The notes below the pieces were generated by a model that saw only the letters and a program-made list of their open reading frames with translations, searched no databases and had not been told where the DNA came from. The position numbers and the translations under genes were made by a program. DNA of 64,000 nt from contig OY282370.1 of assembly GCA_958295745.1 (NCBI GenBank), positions 2,206,548 to 2,270,547 on the forward strand, read 5' to 3'. The DNA comes from an uncultured Acidimicrobiia bacterium. Lineage in GTDB: Bacteria > Actinomycetota > Acidimicrobiia > Spongiisociales > Spongiisociaceae. How positions within the stretch are numbered: position 1 is the stretch's first letter; each line of letters opens with the position of its first letter. Below are positions 27,041-39,235 of the stretch, in pieces.

Positions 27041-28201
27041 CTACACAACCTCTTCGAACAGGTTGATGTAGTCCCGGTATACGAAGCGGCGGTTGCGTTT
27101 TTGGCCGGTGACCTCGTGGAGAATGCCGTGCCCTACCAACCGGGCAACCAAATTGTTGGCGGCTGCAAATGTCGTACCGATGATTCCTCGGATATCGTCC
27201 ACCGAAACGTAAGGGCGCCGGTAGAGGCTCTCGAGAACCCGCATGCCGTTGGCGGTGGAACGGCCCAGATGGTCTGTAAGGATCTTCCGGTGGTCTTCCC
27301 TCGATGTGAGGATCTTACGGGCGGTGTCCGCGGCCTGTAAGCTGACCTCTCTTACGCCCCTGAGGAAAAAGGTCAGCCATTCCTCCCAGGAACCGCGGTC
27401 TCGGACGGATTGCAGACGGTCGTAGTACTCCTGATGGTGTTGTTTGAAGAAATGCGAGAGGTAGAGAACGGGCTTCTGCAGTGCCCCCTGTTCGCAGAGC
27501 ATGAAGGTTATGAGCAGGCGGCCCAGCCGACCGTTGCCGTCCACGAAGGGATGGATCGTCTCGAACTGTGAGTGGGCCAGCCCCACCCTGATCAACAGCG
27601 GCAACGGCGATCCGTCATGTATGAACCGCTCCAACCGGCTCAACGCATCAGAAACCTCATGGGGAGGAGGGGGAACGAAGACGGCGTCGGACAGTGGGGT
27701 GCCCGCAGTCCCGATCCAGTTCTGCGTCGTCCGCAGCTCTCCCGGTGTCTTGTCGCGCCCGCGAGCGCCCACCAGCAGCTCGGCATGGATTTCCCGGAGG
27801 AGTCGGACGGACAGAGGCAGATCCTCCAAGCGCCGGAGGCCATGGTTCATGGCGCGAACGTAGTTGAACACCTCGTCGACGTCTTGCGGCCGGCCGGGCA
27901 GGAACACATCGGCTTCGGCGGCGAGCACATCATGCAGCGAGCTCTGGGTGCCTTCGATCTGGCTGGAGAGTACGGCCTCTTTGCGGACATACATAGCAAT
28001 GAATAGGTCGGGGTAGGGCAGGGTGGTGATGGAACCGTCGAGCCGTCCGAGGGCGCGGTCGGCCTCCGAAAGCACATTCTGAAGCTCGCCTCGAAGTTCG
28101 ATCGGCGGCTTCGGCGGCAAGGGTTCGGGGATGAAAGCCCTGTAGCCGCCGGGTTGGCTGACGTACCTGCCTGCCCTGTTCTGCCTCTGTGTCTCCGACA
28201 C
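27041..28201 (-). CDS. Fic family AMP-transferase, class II
   Basis: The 386-residue protein has a Fic_N domain (about 35-115), the inhibitory helix SSQIEG (79-84) that blocks ATP binding in class II proteins, the catalytic loop HPFVDGNGRLGR (217-228), and a C-terminal winged helix (about 315-385). Fic enzymes transfer AMP to Tyr or Thr of target proteins, often themselves. No antitoxin partner is needed in class II. GTG start. The 40-bp repeat array lies just upstream, past its promoter region. Confidence 0.9.
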   Translation of the reverse strand: MSETQRQNRAGRYVSQPGGYRAFIPEPLPPKPPIELRGELQNVLSEADRALGRLDGSITTLPYPDLFIAMYVRKEAVLSSQIEGTQSSLHDVLAAEADVFLPGRPQDVDEVFNYVRAMNHGLRRLEDLPLSVRLLREIHAELLVGARGRDKTPGELRTTQNWIGTAGTPLSDAVFVPPPPHEVSDALSRLERFIHDGSPLPLLIRVGLAHSQFETIHPFVDGNGRLGRLLITFMLCEQGALQKPVLYLSHFFKQHHQEYYDRLQSVRDRGSWEEWLTFFLRGVREVSLQAADTARKILTSREDHRKILTDHLGRSTANGMRVLESLYRRPYVSVDDIRGIIGTTFAAANNLVARLVGHGILHEVTGQKRNRRFVYRDYINLFEEVV

Positions 28202-28479: not shown

Positions 28480-29745
28480 TCAGCGGACCTGTCCGTTGCT
28501 TGCCACCGGCGTGCGCGCTTTCAGATAGGCGGCCAGGTGATCCACCAGATCGCGGGCGTCGTCTTCGGCGCCGTGGATGAAGCTCGACTTGCGTCTGCGG
28601 AGGAAGTTCAGCCCGATCCTGTACATGCCCGGCGAGCCGGTCACCACCCCGCCCTCGTGGCGCAGCCGGCCCCTGTGGTCCAGCACCGGGACGTCCAGCC
28701 ACGAGTAGTCCGGCCGGTAGCCGGTGGCCCATAGGACCGTCCGTACCTCGCCCCCTTCCAGGTCGAGGCTCAACGGCGGCGACTTCTCGACACGGGTGGG
28801 TTCGAACCGGTGCGGGGGGTCGAACTCGTTGTCGAGACCGTTCTCGGCGACCCACTCGTCGATGGTGGTGAGGAGGCGGTTCATCTTCAGGTCGGCGCGT
28901 TTGCACTTGTTGTGGAGCCCTCCGGACATCTGGGCCTTCCCGTCCCGGATGCCTGCCAGCCGGCCCACCATCCTCACCCCCATGTCTGTCAGGAAGTTGA
29001 GGTCGAGCGTCTTGCGCTCAGGCGTGCCGACCAGCTGAGGGGAAGGAACCCGGCGGGCCCGAATTATGTCGTCCACCTCGTCGAAGCGCTCGTTGCTGAC
29101 CCCGACCATATCCATCCACCAGTGGATGTCCTTGCCCCGGTACACCCGGGGCAAGCGGACATGTTCCCCTACCGAAACGGTCACCGGGCGCCCCGAACGA
29201 TGGATCTCCTCGGCGATCTGGATGCCGGTGGCCGAGACCCCCACCACCAGCACCGCCCCTTCCCGGAGATCCGAGGGACGGCGGTAGTCGAGCGAGGTCA
29301 CCGAGTCGACCGAAGTGGGGAGGGCCGCGGCGATGGGCGGCACCTTGGGCAGGTTGAACCCGCCGGAGGCCAGCACCACCGACCGGCACAGCCAGTCGCC
29401 GCGGTCCGTCACCACCTCGTAGTCCTCGCCGTCCTTGCGCACCGAGAGAACGGTGGTGAGCGTCTCGAGGGGCGGGTCCAGCAACCGGGCGTACCGGTCT
29501 ATGAAATCGACCACTTCGGGCATGGTCATGTAACCGTCCGGGTCCTTCCCGTCGTAGGGGAGGCCGGGCAGGCCGGTTTTCCAGTTGGGCGTGAGCAGGC
29601 GCAGGGAGTCCCAGCGTTCCGTACGCCACGAGTTGGCCACCTCGCCGCGTTCGAGCACTACGTGGTCGATCGAGCGTGCGGAGAGGAAGTGGCTGACGGC
29701 TAGGCCGCTGTGCCCGGCGCCGATTACGACAGTGGTGGTGCGCAC
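28480..29745 (-). CDS. Flavin-containing monooxygenase-like oxidoreductase (CzcO type)
   Basis: The 421-residue flavoprotein has VIGAGHSGLAVSHFL at the N-terminus for FAD, a second dinucleotide motif (VVGVSATGIQIAEE, about 172-185) for NADPH, and the LWATGYRPDYSW segment near 345 typical of FMO-like enzymes. GTG start at 29745. It follows osmC by 17 bases and is therefore under the SAM riboswitch leader. Oxidation of a sulfur-containing compound fits that control; this is inference from regulation, not from the protein itself. Confidence 0.83.
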   Translation of the reverse strand: MRTTTVVIGAGHSGLAVSHFLSARSIDHVVLERGEVANSWRTERWDSLRLLTPNWKTGLPGLPYDGKDPDGYMTMPEVVDFIDRYARLLDPPLETLTTVLSVRKDGEDYEVVTDRGDWLCRSVVLASGGFNLPKVPPIAAALPTSVDSVTSLDYRRPSDLREGAVLVVGVSATGIQIAEEIHRSGRPVTVSVGEHVRLPRVYRGKDIHWWMDMVGVSNERFDEVDDIIRARRVPSPQLVGTPERKTLDLNFLTDMGVRMVGRLAGIRDGKAQMSGGLHNKCKRADLKMNRLLTTIDEWVAENGLDNEFDPPHRFEPTRVEKSPPLSLDLEGGEVRTVLWATGYRPDYSWLDVPVLDHRGRLRHEGGVVTGSPGMYRIGLNFLRRRKSSFIHGAEDDARDLVDHLAAYLKARTPVASNGQVR

Positions 29746-29762: not shown

Positions 29763-30317
29763 TCAGCTGACGCTGACGGATACGTTGGTGGGGTTGGTCA
29801 TGATGTCGAAGACCGCCGAGATCTTCTGCGACTGGGCGACCAATGCTTCGAGGTCCGCTTGGCCGGCACCGTCTGCGTCGATCTCGTAGTTGACCCGAAC
29901 ATCGTTGAACCCGTTGCGGACATCGGGGTCCGCTCCGAGGATGCCGCCGATGTTCATGTCTGCTTCCAACGTAGCCTTTACCGACCTCAGCTTGATCTCC
30001 CGGTTCTCGGCCACCGCGGCCACGCCGGCGGTCAAGCAGCTCGCCAGGCCGGCCAGCACGATCTCCACCGGGGTGGCGGCGTTGTCCTTGGCGTTGAACT
30101 CCAGAGGATGGTCAGCCTCGAACTCGTAGTTCGACTTGTGGGCGCGCTCCTCACCCAGGCCGAAGTAGCCGTCGATCCTCGTCCTGCTGTGCGTTCCGTG
30201 GACCCACTCGTTCGAAGCCCTCCACGTGTAGTCGCCGGCTGCCGGCGCATCTCCGACCACTCCCCGAGCGAACAGCAAGTGTGCCGTGTCGACTCCGTTG
30301 ATCTCACCTTTACTCAT
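29763..30317 (-). CDS. OsmC family protein
   Basis: The 184-residue protein has the OsmC/Ohr swap-dimer pattern, with the conserved ETVLAGLASC-like helix (Cys94 in GLASCLTAG) and the C-terminal SAVFDIMTNPTNV strand. Cys94 is the only cysteine: the partner cysteine of peroxide-reducing OsmC is replaced by Ser, so peroxidase chemistry is doubtful. A GGGAGA ribosome site precedes the ATG. It is the first gene behind a 440-base leader with a SAM riboswitch and a Cys-codon frame, which points to a sulfur-related role. Confidence 0.88.
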   Translation of the reverse strand: MSKGEINGVDTAHLLFARGVVGDAPAAGDYTWRASNEWVHGTHSRTRIDGYFGLGEERAHKSNYEFEADHPLEFNAKDNAATPVEIVLAGLASCLTAGVAAVAENREIKLRSVKATLEADMNIGGILGADPDVRNGFNDVRVNYEIDADGAGQADLEALVAQSQKISAVFDIMTNPTNVSVSVS

Positions 30318-30473
30318 GGTTCTCCCTTTGTCTTTGTGTTGGTTGGATGACTTGTGACTGTTATCCGATCTTCATCTTGGAGGCCGGTTCTCCGGCTGTA
30401 GAGCCTTCACGTTCGAGCCGGGACCGGTCCTCGGTAGATTCGATCGAACGCCGCGGCCAGAAGGGCCTTCGGT

Positions 30474-30540
30474 GGCTCCCGGGTGGTGGCGTTCGCTACG
30501 GGCGGCTAGCGGGGCCGCCCGGGTGGACCACCCGGGAGCC
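30474..30540 (-). promoter_or_regulatory. Competing hairpins, attenuator-like
   Basis: On the transcript, the segment from 30540 to 30527 can pair over 14 perfect bases with the segment 30487-30474 (GGCTCCCGGGTGGT with ACCACCCGGGAGCC). The same 5' segment can instead pair with the adjacent CCACCCGGG, and GGGCGGC pairs with GCCGCCC around CCCGCTA. The folds exclude each other and overlap a short frame with two Cys codons. No T-run follows, so the switch may act on Rho or on later translation. Confidence 0.6.
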
Positions 30541-30594
30541 CGGACAACACATGTCCCCGCGTCGGACGGATGGCAAAAGGTGCGGGGTGTTCAT
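30496..30594 (-). CDS. Putative Cys-codon leader peptide, 32 residues
   Basis: A short frame starts at ATG 30594 behind AAGGAG (30604-30609, nine-base spacing) and ends at TAG. It contains tandem Cys codons (MCCPGSR, residues 15-21), placed just before and within the competing hairpins, so that a ribosome slowed at Cys codons would change which hairpin forms. Cys-rich leader frames that attenuate sulfur genes are known in mycobacteria. It lies between the SAM aptamer and osmC. Expression is unproven; the codon, ribosome-site and hairpin arrangement is the evidence. Confidence 0.55.
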   Translation of the reverse strand: MNTPHLLPSVRRGDMCCPGSRVVHPGGPASRP

Positions 30595-30664
30595 GATGAC
30601 GGTCTCCTTCTCGCTCTCCACGCGCTCCTCGAGCGCCGTGAGCGGAATAACCCGCCTCGGCAGA

Positions 30665-30743
30665 CTCATCGATCAGGCATTGGCACCGCTCTGGTCGGTT
30701 GCCGCGGCTTCACAGGGCCTGTCCCTCCACCGCTCTGGATGAG
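30665..30743 (-). ncRNA. SAM-I-clan riboswitch aptamer
   Basis: Read on the minus strand, the stretch begins CTCATC (30743-30738) and ends GATGAG (30670-30665), forming P1. Between them lie AGAG, GGAGGGAC, GGCCCTGTGAAGCC, GGCAACC and GGTGCCAAT, in the order and spacing of the SAM-I (S-box) core. The usual P4 hairpin seems to be missing: after GGTGCCAATGCC the strand returns almost at once to P1, as in P4-less SAM-I/IV variants. A hairpin at 30622-30636 (GCGCTC with GAGCGC) and the leader-peptide ribosome site follow as a likely expression platform. Confidence 0.88.
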
Positions 30744-30760
30744 CGCGTTATGTCGCCGAC

Positions 30761-30789
30761 ATTAGAACACAGATATCCACGAATGTCAA
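30761..30789 (-). promoter_or_regulatory. Housekeeping-type promoter of the osmC-FMO operon
   Basis: On the minus strand TTGACA (30789-30784), a 17-base spacer and TCTAAT (30766-30761) make a near-consensus promoter. Transcription would start near 30754, about ten bases before P1 of the riboswitch. The AT-richer bases here stand out from their surroundings. Bases 30790-30867 up to the exonuclease stop show nothing further. Confidence 0.75.
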
Positions 30790-32109: not shown

Positions 32110-32961
32110 ATGAGCGGGCCGATCGTTTCCTGTGCTTGGTTGGCCGAGCGGCTGGGCGATCCGGGGATCCGGGTGGCGGACACCAGATGGTTCCTCGGGC
32201 AACCGGGGGAAGGCCGTCTGCGGTACGCGGAGGGTCACATACCGGGTGCGGTATTCCTCGATCTCGACGAGGACTTGGCCGGGCCGGTCGGGCCGGGCCG
32301 GCACCCGCTTCCTGACCCGGCGGTTTTCGCGTCCACACTGGCCAGCAACGGGATCGGCAACCGCCATCACGTCGTGGCCTATGACCAAGGTCCCGGTTCT
32401 ATAGCGGCCCGGCTCTGGTGGATGCTGCGCAGCTTTGGACACGAGCAGGTCAGCGTGCTGGACGGGGGTTTCCATCATTGGATCGGGTCGGGCTTGCCCG
32501 CGGAGGCAGGTCCGGAGCGGGCCGCCGCCCCCGCCGTGTTCGAGGTGCGGGCCGACGCCACCCACACCATCGACCGCGACTCGCTCCGAGCCCGGCTGGG
32601 CGCCGTCCAGGTAATCGACGCCCGCCCGCCGGCCCGTTACCGCGGGGAGGACGAATCGGTGGATCCCGTCGCAGGACATATACCAACCTCGATCTCGGCC
32701 CCCACCGACGGGAACGTCCGGGCGGACGGAACCTTCAAGACGCCCGAGGATCTGGCGGCCCGCTTCGCCGGTCTGGGCATCGATCCCGCCGCGCCGGTGG
32801 TCAGCTCGTGCGGGAGCGGGGTGACGGCCTGCCACAACATCCTGGCCCTGCACTTGGCGGGTTTCCCCGAAGCAATCCTCTATCCCGGCTCATGGTCGGA
32901 CTGGTCGTCGTCAGGCTTCCCCGCCGCTGTGGGCCCCCGGCCCGGCCCTTCCCCGGGATAG
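32110..32961 (+). CDS. sseA: Thiosulfate / 3-mercaptopyruvate sulfurtransferase
   Basis: The 283-residue protein has two rhodanese domains (about 1-135 and 150-280). The C-terminal one carries the active loop CGSGVTA with Cys234; this loop, rather than CRKGVT, favours 3-mercaptopyruvate as donor. The N-terminal domain keeps GHIPGAVFLDLD and DQGPGSIAARLWW without a catalytic Cys, as usual. It makes a persulfide for transfer to thiol or cyanide acceptors. Its nearness to the SAM-regulated operon, though on the other strand, gives a small sulfur cluster. Confidence 0.9.
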   Translation: MSGPIVSCAWLAERLGDPGIRVADTRWFLGQPGEGRLRYAEGHIPGAVFLDLDEDLAGPVGPGRHPLPDPAVFASTLASNGIGNRHHVVAYDQGPGSIAARLWWMLRSFGHEQVSVLDGGFHHWIGSGLPAEAGPERAAAPAVFEVRADATHTIDRDSLRARLGAVQVIDARPPARYRGEDESVDPVAGHIPTSISAPTDGNVRADGTFKTPEDLAARFAGLGIDPAAPVVSSCGSGVTACHNILALHLAGFPEAILYPGSWSDWSSSGFPAAVGPRPGPSPG

Positions 32962-35575: not shown

Positions 35576-36190
35576 ATGAATGCTCTTGATCCCATTGATG
35601 CTACTCGGAAGACAGGTAAAGAGAATTTCCGTTCCGGAGGGGAGGATATTTCGATTGGATTGAAAGAATTTTGGAGTTGGTCTTACTCCGATCTGTTGAA
35701 CAATGTATCTCGCGGGGTGCTCGCCGAGTTTCTGGTCGCGCATGCCTTGGGTGTAGTTAAGGGTAATACTCGCAAGGAATGGCATCCTGTAGATCTCGAA
35801 AGTAAAACGGGTATCAAAATCGAAGTAAAGAGTGCAGCTTATATTCAGTCTTGGAAGCAAAAAACTTTCTCCCGGATTGAATTCGGCATTGCGCCAACTT
35901 TGGGATGGGATGGGCAAACCAATAAATGGTCTAGTGAGAAGAAACGACATTCTGACGTCTATGTTTTTTGTCTGCTTGGGGAAAAGATCAAAGATAAAAT
36001 ACCAGACCCGAGCGATATAGATCAGTGGAAGTTCTATGTAATCAGTACACGCAAGTTGTGCGAAGAACAGGGTGAACAAAAGAGGATATCATTGAATATG
36101 CTGAAGGAACTAAAACCAGCGAAAGTAACATTTGATGGATTAAAGGATGCTGTGGAGAGAGCAGGGGAGGAAGGTTCATCGTCCGGCTAG
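35576..36190 (+). CDS. AT-rich PD-(D/E)xK nuclease-like hypothetical protein
   Basis: The 204-residue product shows a restriction-nuclease core: Glu51 in VLAEFLVAHAL, Asp73 in HPVDLE, and Glu83-Val-Lys85 in IKIEVKSAAY, followed by RHSDVYVFCLL and WKFYVISTRKL. I do not recognise a named family. The DNA is clearly poorer in G+C than its neighbours (AAAGAATTTT, TTTTTTGTC), which suggests recent transfer. GGAG precedes the ATG. The end overlaps the convergent MenF-MenD gene by 15 bases. It could be a solitary restriction-like nuclease. Confidence 0.7.
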   Translation: MNALDPIDATRKTGKENFRSGGEDISIGLKEFWSWSYSDLLNNVSRGVLAEFLVAHALGVVKGNTRKEWHPVDLESKTGIKIEVKSAAYIQSWKQKTFSRIEFGIAPTLGWDGQTNKWSSEKKRHSDVYVFCLLGEKIKDKIPDPSDIDQWKFYVISTRKLCEEQGEQKRISLNMLKELKPAKVTFDGLKDAVERAGEEGSSSG

Positions 36191-39100
36191 GCGGTCGTAG
36201 GCGGAGAAGGCGGAGGCCGGGTCGGTCTCTACGACCAGCACGTTGACGCCGGGGCGGGAGCGGGCCTTGGCCAGCGCCTCCGTGATCCGGTCGGGGGCGG
36301 AGCGTTCGGTCGATACGCCGAACCCGGCGGCGACCGCGGCCAGGTCTTGGCCGTGCGGGGTGACGAAGAGTTCCCGGCCCTCGGCGTAGGCCCCGGCGCG
36401 GCCCGCCTCGCGCAGAGACCGGAGGTAGGGGAGTACCTCGAAGATGGCCCCCCCGCCATTGTCGAGCACCACTATGGAGAGATCCACCTCCAGCCTCCGG
36501 GCGGCGGCCAGCGACCCTACATCGTGCAGGAAGGTGAGGTCGCCGATCAGGGCGGTCACTCTCTGCCGCAGGGCCAGGGCCGCGCCCGCCGCCGAGGCAA
36601 TGGCGCCGTCTATCCCGCACGCCCCCCGATTGCCGAAGACCGCAGCGGCGCATCCCGCTTCCATCATCGCGTCCGCGTGGCGCACCGGCAGGCTGGAACC
36701 CACCCACACGACCGGCTCGGATTCGAGCACCGCCGCGGTCACTGCCAGTTCCGTATCGGGGTGTTCCGACCGCTCCACCTGCCGCCTCTGCCGCATCCGC
36801 TCCTCGGCGGCGCGCCACGACGTCCGCCATCCCGGTTCGAGCGGGGGCGGCGACACCTTTTCCAGCAGGGAAGCGATCGGGTCGCGGAGCACCAGCTCCG
36901 GACCCGGGGCGGTCCGGCGGAAGTCCGGGTCCAGGAAGGCTTGGGGGGCGTCGAGGGCCGCCAGCCAGTTCTGGGCGGCCGCTCCGGTGGGGGCGCCGCC
37001 GATCCGGATGACGGCGTCGGGTAGGTGACCGGCGGCAAACTCGGCATCCCGCAGCAGCAGATCGCCCGCGGTGATGAGGTTCTCGTGTTCGAGGACCCGC
37101 AGGCCCGACATCGGATCGGCCAGGATCGGCCAGCCCGCCGCACATGCGAGACGGGCGAGGGCCGCCCGCTCCGCCGGGTCAGCGGCGCGCGGCCCGGCTG
37201 CGATCACCCCTCGCTCCGACCTTTTCATGAAGCGCAGCAGCTGGTCGGCCGAGCGGGTGCTCGCCACGGGCGCCGGGGGCGGTTCCGGCGGCGGCGCCTC
37301 GGCGGGGGGTGACCGGCGGGGGGGCGGCTCCAAGGGCTTGGCGAAGGGGAAGTTCACATGGACCGGTCCGGCCCGAGGCGGCCCGGCCGCCCGGAGCACG
37401 CGCCGCGTCTCTTCGATCACCCGCTGCGGGTCGCATTCGTGTGCGATCGGGAGGCAGGTGAATGCCCGCACCCGGCTGCCGTACAGTTCGATCTGGTCGA
37501 TGGTCTGGGGGGCGTCCCGTTCGAGGAAACCGGGCGGGCGGTCGGCGGTGATCACCACTAGGGGAACCCGCGCCCGGTCGGCCTCCGCCACCGCCGGCAG
37601 GTAGTTGGCGGCGGCGGTGCCGGAGGTGCATATCAGCGCCGCCGGCCTGCCGGACGCCTTGGCCATGCCGAGCGCGACGAACCCGGCCGAACGCTCGTCG
37701 ATCACCGTCCACCACGGCGGCCCTTCGGCTGCTGCGGCGAGCGCGAGGGGCGTGGACCGGGAACCGGGCGAGATAAACGCCCCTTCCACCGAGCCGGAGC
37801 GGAGGGCGGCCGCCAAGGCGTCGGCGGCGGCGTAGGTGCGCCTGCGATGATCCTGCACCCCGTACAAGGAGGGCAGCACCGCGCCGAGTTTCAGGTCGGT
37901 CTCCTCCAGCTCCCGCTCCGGCGTGGACGCCGCCACGATCCCGGCCCCGGCGAAGGCCAGGGTGCGGCCGCCTTCGATCAGGCAGGAACGGAGGGCGGCG
38001 TGGAACTCGCCGTTCCCGGCTAGGTCGCAGTAACCGACCGGCCCGGCGTACCAGCCCCGGTCGAAGCCCTCATGACGGTCGATCCAATCCACGGCCAAGT
38101 CTCCCGGCAGGCCCGCCACGGCGGGGGTGGGGTGCAGGGCGCCCACCACATCCAGGATGTTCGTCCCGACGGGGGCGACGGCGCCGACCGGCGCGGCCAG
38201 ATGCTGGATGCCGGACAGCCGCAGTACCTCGGTCGGGGCCGGGGGATCGAGCACGAAGCCTCCGTCATCCAGCCTACGGCGCACCTCGTCGTGTACGTGG
38301 CGGTGTTCCTCCAGCTCCTTCGGATCGTTCCGGAGGCGCTCGGCTAGGAGGCGGTCCTCGGCGGGGCCGCCGCCCCTGGGAGCGGTCCCGGCCAGCGCGA
38401 GCGCAGACACGGTCACCCCGTCCACCCGCACCAGGAGCTCGGGAGTGGCCCCGCAGAAAACCGAACCCTCCGCCGCGCCGAAGGCGAAGACGGCGCAGGC
38501 GCCGTGGATCTGCCGCAGCGCGGCCAGGAACGGGCCGATCTCCGGGCGGTGGTCCACCTCCACTCGGCGGGCCAGGACCACCTTTTGCAGCCCGCCGCTC
38601 CGGACCAGCCGGACCGCATTTTCCGCCTTCGCCAGAAAGTCGGGGCCGCCGCGGCCGGTGCCGCCCGGCATCGGCCGGTCGATCGCATCGGGCTCTATCG
38701 GGTCGGGGCGCAGAGCGGCGGCCTCTTCGATCCGGCCGATCAGGCGGTCGGCCTGCTCGCCGGGGTCCGCGCCCCCGTCGATCTCGGCGGCTGCGACCCA
38801 TACGCCTTTGCCGCGCCCGCGGCGGATGAGCGCCAGCTCGGGAAGCACCAACCGCCCGGGCGGGAAGTCCGGCCATGTCCTGCGGGGATGGAACGAGAAG
38901 CCGCCCAGCAGCAGCGGCGTCCGCTCGGCGCCGCCGAAGGCGACCTGATGGGTGCGGGCCGCCAGGTCGCGCAGCGCCGCCGATGCGTCAGCGAACCTGT
39001 TCGGACCGGCCTCCGGCGCGATCGTGCACGCCTCCCCGAGTGCGGCGATGGAAACCCCCCGGTCGGGCGCCTCCCAGTAGGCGAAAGGCGGTCCGGCTTC

Positions 39101-39235
39101 CAACACTAGGGCCAGCGGATCGACATCGCCCGCCGGGGCCGCCAAGGTGACCGTCGAGGGCAGACCGGATACCGCGGCCCGGACGGCCGCCTTGGCAATG
39201 CGGTCCTCCAGACGGCGCCGGCCGCTCATCCCCAT
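36176..39235 (-). CDS. Isochorismate synthase - SEPHCHC synthase fusion (MenF-MenD)
   Basis: The 1019-residue protein joins two menaquinone enzymes. Residues about 1-457 are a chorismate-using isochorismate synthase (KVVLARRVE, GATPELLV, HPTPAVAGLP 369-377, RGWYAGPVGY). Residues about 465-1019 are a ThDP-dependent MenD: SPGSRSTPL (489-497), DERSAGFVALG, TSGTAAANYLPAV, RGACGIDGAIA, GDLTFLHDVGSL and DNGGGAIFEVLP. Together they turn chorismate into SEPHCHC without releasing isochorismate. No stop, frameshift or gap marks the join. Its start lies ten bases inside the MerR gene, so the two are coupled. Confidence 0.93.
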   Translation of the reverse strand: MGMSGRRRLEDRIAKAAVRAAVSGLPSTVTLAAPAGDVDPLALVLEAGPPFAYWEAPDRGVSIAALGEACTIAPEAGPNRFADASAALRDLAARTHQVAFGGAERTPLLLGGFSFHPRRTWPDFPPGRLVLPELALIRRGRGKGVWVAAAEIDGGADPGEQADRLIGRIEEAAALRPDPIEPDAIDRPMPGGTGRGGPDFLAKAENAVRLVRSGGLQKVVLARRVEVDHRPEIGPFLAALRQIHGACAVFAFGAAEGSVFCGATPELLVRVDGVTVSALALAGTAPRGGGPAEDRLLAERLRNDPKELEEHRHVHDEVRRRLDDGGFVLDPPAPTEVLRLSGIQHLAAPVGAVAPVGTNILDVVGALHPTPAVAGLPGDLAVDWIDRHEGFDRGWYAGPVGYCDLAGNGEFHAALRSCLIEGGRTLAFAGAGIVAASTPERELEETDLKLGAVLPSLYGVQDHRRRTYAAADALAAALRSGSVEGAFISPGSRSTPLALAAAAEGPPWWTVIDERSAGFVALGMAKASGRPAALICTSGTAAANYLPAVAEADRARVPLVVITADRPPGFLERDAPQTIDQIELYGSRVRAFTCLPIAHECDPQRVIEETRRVLRAAGPPRAGPVHVNFPFAKPLEPPPRRSPPAEAPPPEPPPAPVASTRSADQLLRFMKRSERGVIAAGPRAADPAERAALARLACAAGWPILADPMSGLRVLEHENLITAGDLLLRDAEFAAGHLPDAVIRIGGAPTGAAAQNWLAALDAPQAFLDPDFRRTAPGPELVLRDPIASLLEKVSPPPLEPGWRTSWRAAEERMRQRRQVERSEHPDTELAVTAAVLESEPVVWVGSSLPVRHADAMMEAGCAAAVFGNRGACGIDGAIASAAGAALALRQRVTALIGDLTFLHDVGSLAAARRLEVDLSIVVLDNGGGAIFEVLPYLRSLREAGRAGAYAEGRELFVTPHGQDLAAVAAGFGVSTERSAPDRITEALAKARSRPGVNVLVVETDPASAFSAYDRLAGR

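Follow-up and report, generated by a model that had tools for sequence, protein, structure and literature searches.

A P4-less SAM-I aptamer and a cysteine leader attenuator in series ahead of osmC-FMO: a probable two-input sulfur control in mostly uncultured actinobacteria

We analysed a 64,000-nucleotide stretch of DNA (the window) from an uncultured Acidimicrobiia bacterium of the order Spongiisociales (assembly GCA_958295745.1, contig OY282370.1). On its minus strand, a SAM-I riboswitch aptamer (SAM, S-adenosylmethionine), a short cysteine-containing leader open reading frame (ORF) and a covarying RNA stem precede an operon of osmC and a gene for an FMO-like flavin monooxygenase. A promoter (30761-30789) stands in front, with TTGACA (30784-30789) separated by a 17-nt spacer from TCTAAT (30761-30766) and 11 of the 12 consensus bases present, and transcription would be expected to start near 30754. 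TTGACN-17-NNTANT-like boxes occur at the same place and spacing in most relatives examined. The osmC gene (29763-30317) encodes a 184-aa OsmC-family protein (PF02566, 62.7 bits) and is followed by the FMO-like gene (28480-29745, 421 aa), whose nearest NCBIfam model is TIGR04046 (342 bits, under the cut-off of 498). The interval of 346 nt between aptamer and osmC holds a 32-codon ORF, the nearest to the aptamer, with a Shine-Dalgarno (SD) sequence of its own.

The aptamer (30663-30745) was matched by the Rfam SAM-I model RF00162 using cmscan, with 69.2 bits (E 4.5e-14) against a gathering threshold of 44.4, and is the single RF00162 match in the whole 3.31 Mb genome. The initial annotation, made from the letters alone, had described a SAM-I core on the minus strand, closed by a six-base P1, lacking P4 and lying behind a near-consensus promoter; each of these features was located, and the score clears the condition that the annotation itself had named for giving up its reading, namely no SAM-clan match above threshold. 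The motifs AGAG, GGAGGGAC, GGCCCTGTGAAGCC, GGCAACC and GGTGCCAAT follow one another in this order, and P1 is formed by CTCATC (30738-30743) and GATGAG (30665-30670). The PK-1 pseudoknot joins CAGG of loop 2 to a CCTG strand 3' of P3, and its strands co-vary, being CAGG:CCTG in most loci and CGGG:CCCG in two (L179 and L184). Each position of SAM contact in the solved structure of SAM-I is retained (AA of GGCAACC, UGC of GGUGC, G of AGAG and the A-U pairs of P1), and the aptamer would be expected to bind SAM.

Identity with the other classes considered, SAM-I/IV and SAM-IV, was rejected on their models: at E<=1, RF01725 (SAM-I/IV) matches nowhere in the genome and RF00634 (SAM-IV) does not match at the aptamer, its only match, elsewhere, being at chance level (20.8 bits). 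As regards the P5/PK-2 feature of SAM-IV, hairpins follow P1, loop 3 of the aptamer is variable at the loci read, and no shared partner for it was apparent by eye. SAM-IV resembles the present aptamer in also lacking P4 (PMC6890682). With the S box, or SAM-I, family (RF00162) the locus shares the core, the kink-turn (K-turn) strands, PK-1, P1-P3, the SAM-contact sites and the above-threshold score; it differs in having no P4 and in a platform that adjoins the SD of a leader peptide.

The loss of P4 is evident from the alignment of 30663-30745, in which the P4 columns of RF00162 are deleted; the pseudoknot strand CCTG is followed by ATC and then directly by the 3' strand of P1. The annotation had remarked on the absence of the usual P4; within the order, however, this is the common form. 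RF00162 is present in 95 of its 138 genomes, and 69 of the 81 SAM-I loci read across it have no room for P4; those that do bear it lie mostly ahead of metY-like or other methionine genes. The P4-less form is therefore a variant of the lineage rather than a property of the osmC-FMO operon. The family score is reached without P4, and the assignment of 30663-30745 as a P4-less variant of SAM-I is well supported. At four other loci (L118, L156, L158 and L162) the aptamer of the SAM-I match runs into, or almost up to, the start of a ~370-390-aa protein; the L158 protein has no NCBIfam match, and at L156 an MTHFR-like gene follows.

The platform allows two alternative pairings. In a putative switching helix, anti-P1 (30620-30748), the strand ACGCGCTC (30741-30748) is paired with GAGCGCGT (30620-30627). 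The former overlaps the 5' strand of P1; the GAGCGCGT region also serves as the 3' arm of an alternative hairpin (GCGCTC 30631-30636 / GAGCGC 30622-30627). Most of the order's SAM-I loci have the anti-P1 pairing, some in the compensated variants GAAACGCT:AGCGTTTC and CTCGTTG:CAACGAG, and its mean helix score fell from 18.2 to 13.4 when the 3' side was shuffled. The SD of the leader ORF, AAGGAG (30604-30609), adjoins the switching hairpin. At osmC loci this SD takes the same position relative to the platform as do the SDs of metH, thrC and some metY genes at sister loci that have no leader; the simplest reading is that SAM would control translation of the leader.

The leader ORF (30496-30594), MNTPHLLPSVRRGDMCCPGSRVVHPGGPASRP, ends in the stop codon TAG at 30496-30498 and contains tandem cysteine codons, TGT TGT (30544-30549), that finish 3 nt before a 14-bp inverted repeat. 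A leader ORF with an SD recurs in relatives that have SAM-I before osmC, either with the FMO-like gene or before a second osmC type without it. A start could be assigned at 33 SAM-linked loci, and at every one of them ORF and stem share a frame, the distances differing by whole codons. Furthermore, a Cys codon lies within 12 codons of the stem in 30 of 30 distinct leaders, and of the 12 residues that precede the stem 15.8% are Cys. Leaders that were not part of the covariance-model alignment described below behave alike: 34 of 36 distinct ones have Cys (for example VMCACMCV, TCMCLCM and SCCCGCCV), and Cys accounts for 16.7%, Met for 16.9%, of the in-frame stretch ahead of the stem. A chance origin of these codons was considered and ruled out, as the other two frames hold fewer Cys codons, one of them being raised by TGT overlap. 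None of the NCBIfam and Pfam models matches the leader peptide. An xSRV motif is kept in it, SRV being the translation of the left arm of the stem. In one genome (L178) the leader ORF continues across the whole stem to a stop codon that shares bases with the osmC start (ATGA), which suggests translational coupling there.

The left arm of the stem, GGCTCCCGGGTGGT (30527-30540), lies inside the leader ORF after the Cys codons and pairs perfectly, with covariation, with the right arm, ACCACCCGGGAGCC (30474-30487), which starts 8 nt beyond the stop codon of the leader. Nested between them is an inner hairpin (30499-30521), formed in the minimum free energy fold by CGGGCGGC (30514-30521) and GCCGCCCG (30499-30506) and ending at the leader stop; many relatives have such a hairpin, of different sequence, at the same place. 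The region 30430-30610 folds better than its shuffles (z -2.63). The stem covaries. Six of 12 pairs are changed on both sides, with 17 such cells against 3.5 in shuffles (0 of 500 reaching it), and the wider set of full arms gave 33 doubly changed cells, where 2000 shuffles averaged 9 and never exceeded 23; as near relatives are over-represented and the cells not independent, the number of doubly changed pairs is the safer figure. Moreover, control stems slid along the sequence pair at 33-48%, as against 93% for the true one. When 19 leaders were folded with and without occlusion of the left arm, occlusion freed the right arm in most folds. Several hallmarks of an amino-acid attenuator are thus found together, namely a leader ORF with SD, Cys codons ahead of the stem, a compensated stem that overlaps them and genes of the matching pathway, and the identification of leader and stem as a probable ribosome-mediated amino-acid attenuator is well supported.

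The attenuator was traced with a covariance model (R1) built from 26 sequences, mostly of SAM-I-linked loci. Its calibration was short, making E-values rough; the top match in the genome, 30474-30562 (E 1.2e-13), is a training sequence. R1 finds three copies in the genome: the osmC-FMO leader, a second one (L230; G000:C1:1782449-1782524, plus strand) before a second, divergent osmC and without a SAM-I aptamer, and a third (L231; G000:C1:1521960-1522047, minus strand) before a two-domain rhodanese. At E<=0.01 it matches in 61 of the ~138 genomes of the order, with two marginal matches outside it among the 395 genomes of the class that were searched. Of the 89 matches, 49, in 37 genomes, lie 41-138 nt 3' of a same-strand SAM-I aptamer, a tandem arrangement that is in part by construction given the training loci; the other 40, which are without SAM-I, are not. 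Conversely, 101 listed SAM-I aptamers have no attenuator, and where SAM-I precedes metH, thrC or the gene of a 348-aa protein there is neither leader nor attenuator. Aptamer and attenuator are on these grounds separable modules. The genes after R1 matches are osmC-FMO, osmC-metY, metY-metX, two-domain rhodanese, sulfite reductase, siroheme synthase/PAPS reductase and a Cys/Met pyridoxal phosphate enzyme. The tandem form is, as far as these predictions go, used for genes at the entry of sulfide and homocysteine and for osmC. No Rfam family at gathering level and no NCBIfam model matches the attenuator region, and the predicted attenuator is a family of its own, spread through one order of mostly uncultured actinobacteria.

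Loci of osmC and the FMO-like gene were compared across Actinobacteria, Proteobacteria and Acidobacteria, and at 75 of the 80 osmC lies directly upstream of the FMO-like gene on the same strand. The OsmC protein has a single cysteine, C94, retained in 78 of 79 relatives, and Ser167 at the usual site of the second catalytic cysteine, which makes a two-Cys peroxidase mechanism unlikely for it. The annotation had linked both proteins to sulfur or methionine metabolism, and the link to sulfur metabolism holds, with the same leader parts preceding metY, metX, sulfite reductase, PAPS reductase and rhodanese genes. Its companion statement, that osmC is no standard member of a SAM regulon, does not stand, since in Pelagibacter no gene is induced more strongly by sulfur limitation than osmC, which lies there behind a SAM-V riboswitch (PMC5069961). 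That system and the present one share an osmC under a SAM riboswitch with induction on sulfur limitation; the Pelagibacter riboswitch is of another class, and neither an FMO partner nor a Cys leader is described there. We found no open-licence paper that joins a SAM riboswitch, OsmC and a monooxygenase.

Other genes of the window were noted beside these. A gene resembling 3-mercaptopyruvate/thiosulfate sulfurtransferases (32110-32961, plus strand; NF008557, 180 bits, below cut-off) lies 2 kb upstream of the osmC-FMO promoter on the opposite strand. Right after the FMO-like gene, on the same strand, is a gene for a Fic/DOC-family protein with Fic_N and Fic domains (27041-28201, minus strand), and a 1019-aa ORF (36176-39235, minus strand) is a fusion of isochorismate synthase (residues ~108-455) with MenD (residues 471-887 and beyond).

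Taken as a whole, the locus is probably controlled by two sulfur sensors in series, in which SAM-I would gate the Cys/Met leader attenuator and osmC-FMO would be on only when both signals are low. With SAM bound, P1 would close, the hairpin beside the leader SD could form and the leader would be poorly translated; with SAM scarce, the 5' strand of P1 would pair with the 3' arm of that hairpin and free the SD. The translated leader would then sense charged tRNA-Cys, and probably tRNA-Met too. On starvation a ribosome would stall at the Cys codons and cover the left arm, so that no stem forms and the operon is expressed; without a stall, or with the leader untranslated, the stem would form and expression would be attenuated. 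High SAM and high cysteine would each leave the stem intact, and therefore only the shortage of both would turn the operon on. The stem would act on transcription, through Rho or a U-less terminator, a transcriptional output that we propose because the stem has no U-tract and does not reliably mask the osmC SD. The proposal draws on sequence and comparison, that is, on the aptamer, the promoter, the leader with in-frame Cys codons, the covarying stem, the shared platform and the sulfur-gene regulon; from these we infer SAM binding, the direction of both switches, the action of SAM on leader translation and that of the stem on transcription.

Several observations weigh against this proposal. 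The attenuator stem is followed by no U-tract or T-run, and the osmC SD is 42-174 nt away from it. Sequestration of that SD by the stem was rejected, as the 19 leaders folded with and without left-arm occlusion showed no consistent effect; neither the intrinsic terminator (U-tract) of a typical amino-acid attenuator nor a consistently sequestered downstream SD is seen. Two of the 35 SAM-I/osmC loci (L166 and L168) are without the typical stem, although they retain a Cys-containing leader. Likewise, the two exceptions among the 36 leaders outside the alignment (L256 and L260, both before osmC) have runs of Met and no Cys (SMAMMP and RMMMML), so the attenuator probably reads methionine besides cysteine. 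The helix score of anti-P1 is just moderately above that of partner-swapped controls (18.2 against 16.2). Finally, in folding alone the leader SD is not clearly more or less accessible in the free state than in one in which P1 is forced.

This last result is also what would be anticipated if the two devices were independent, with SAM-I acting alone (for example by premature termination, or by mRNA decay before the leader) and the Cys leader separately, so that there is no gating. The 40 attenuators without SAM-I and the 101 aptamers without attenuator, obtained by comparing the two lists, indicate that each module works alone. However, the platform lies directly against the leader SD, as it does against the SDs of enzymes elsewhere, and no terminator-like U-tract follows it. 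We regard independent action as possible, if on balance unlikely.

The missing U-tract, together with a peptide rich in Cys and Met in which xSRV is kept, could instead be read as an RNA-processing or protein-binding site in the stem, with a peptide that is itself active, in metal binding or oxidation sensing, and no codon-specific stalling. Yet SRV is merely the translated left arm and the peptide otherwise varies freely; the only codons to recur immediately 5' of the arm are those for Cys and Met, a pattern known from amino-acid attenuators, and the genes controlled serve sulfur assimilation. This reading is improbable.

Plain SAM-I control of osmC, the earlier reading in which the short ORF and stem are incidental, has in its favour a real aptamer and osmC as the first gene of annotated size, but it can be given very little credence, with the osmC SD more than 300 nt from the aptamer, a Cys leader and stem that are conserved in frame with covariation, and the same leader and stem before sulfur genes that have no SAM-I. 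The initial annotation was right that both genes follow the riboswitch, which precedes osmC-FMO in at least 15 genomes (the source genome included); as an account of control it was incomplete, a second element, the short Cys-leader ORF with its stem, lying in between.

Gating of the leader by SAM-I has partial counterparts among known systems. In mycobacteria and related actinobacteria, polycysteine leader ORFs without conserved hairpins have been reported (Seliverstov 2005, PMC1262725), and Rho has been suggested for actinobacterial cys leaders (PMC1262725); those of M. smegmatis are reported to be leaderless (Canestrari 2020, as cited in PMC9031893). They are short Cys-codon ORFs before sulfur genes, as here, and are described with the ribosome-mediated sensing of cysteine that is predicted for the present leader. 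The present kind of locus differs by its SD, by the covariation of its stem and, in many cases, by a SAM-I aptamer further upstream. The uORFC-8-2 motif before cysS in Rhodobacterales (PMC8632094) likewise joins a leader ORF with tandem Cys codons to an attenuator stem, but it has an intrinsic terminator with U-run and belongs to another gene and phylum. In the M. tuberculosis metE/ppe2 element a B12 riboswitch is coupled to translation of an upstream ORF, also in an actinobacterium (PMC11260477); the abstract of that paper does not describe this ORF as sensing an amino acid, and the present ORF carries Cys/Met codons and a stem. The dual-input SAM-I leader of Xanthomonas joins SAM with tRNA charging as well, through uncharged tRNA-fMet (PMC7270179), but there the tRNA binds the platform directly and here a translating ribosome would read charging. 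Tandem riboswitch NOR gates such as SAM-I with adenosylcobalamin (AdoCbl) before metE (PMC9481103) likewise set two OFF elements in series, the second input here being a leader-peptide attenuator and not an aptamer; that review uses neither the term leader peptide nor the term attenuator.

Both halves of the device are thus of known kinds. In the open-licence papers searched we found no description of a Cys/Met leader attenuator arranged in tandem with a SAM-I aptamer, or of an aptamer placed to license a ribosome-based amino-acid sensor. That SAM-I decides whether a leader reading Cys and Met is translated, making a layered gate of SAM and Cys/Met-tRNA with a new attenuator family in one actinobacterial order, is in our estimate an evenly balanced proposition; if true, it predicts a clean two-input gate. 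The attenuator model may serve as a marker for the sulfur regulon of these mostly uncultured actinobacteria. It also ties a widely conserved, functionally unassigned pair, a single-Cys OsmC and an FMO-like oxygenase, to sulfur assimilation. Since expression is predicted when SAM and cysteine are both low, a role in oxygenating an organosulfur compound for sulfur salvage is suggested for OsmC-FMO, and the link to sulfur would make a hunt for the substrate possible among organosulfur compounds that cells draw on in a shortage of SAM and cysteine.
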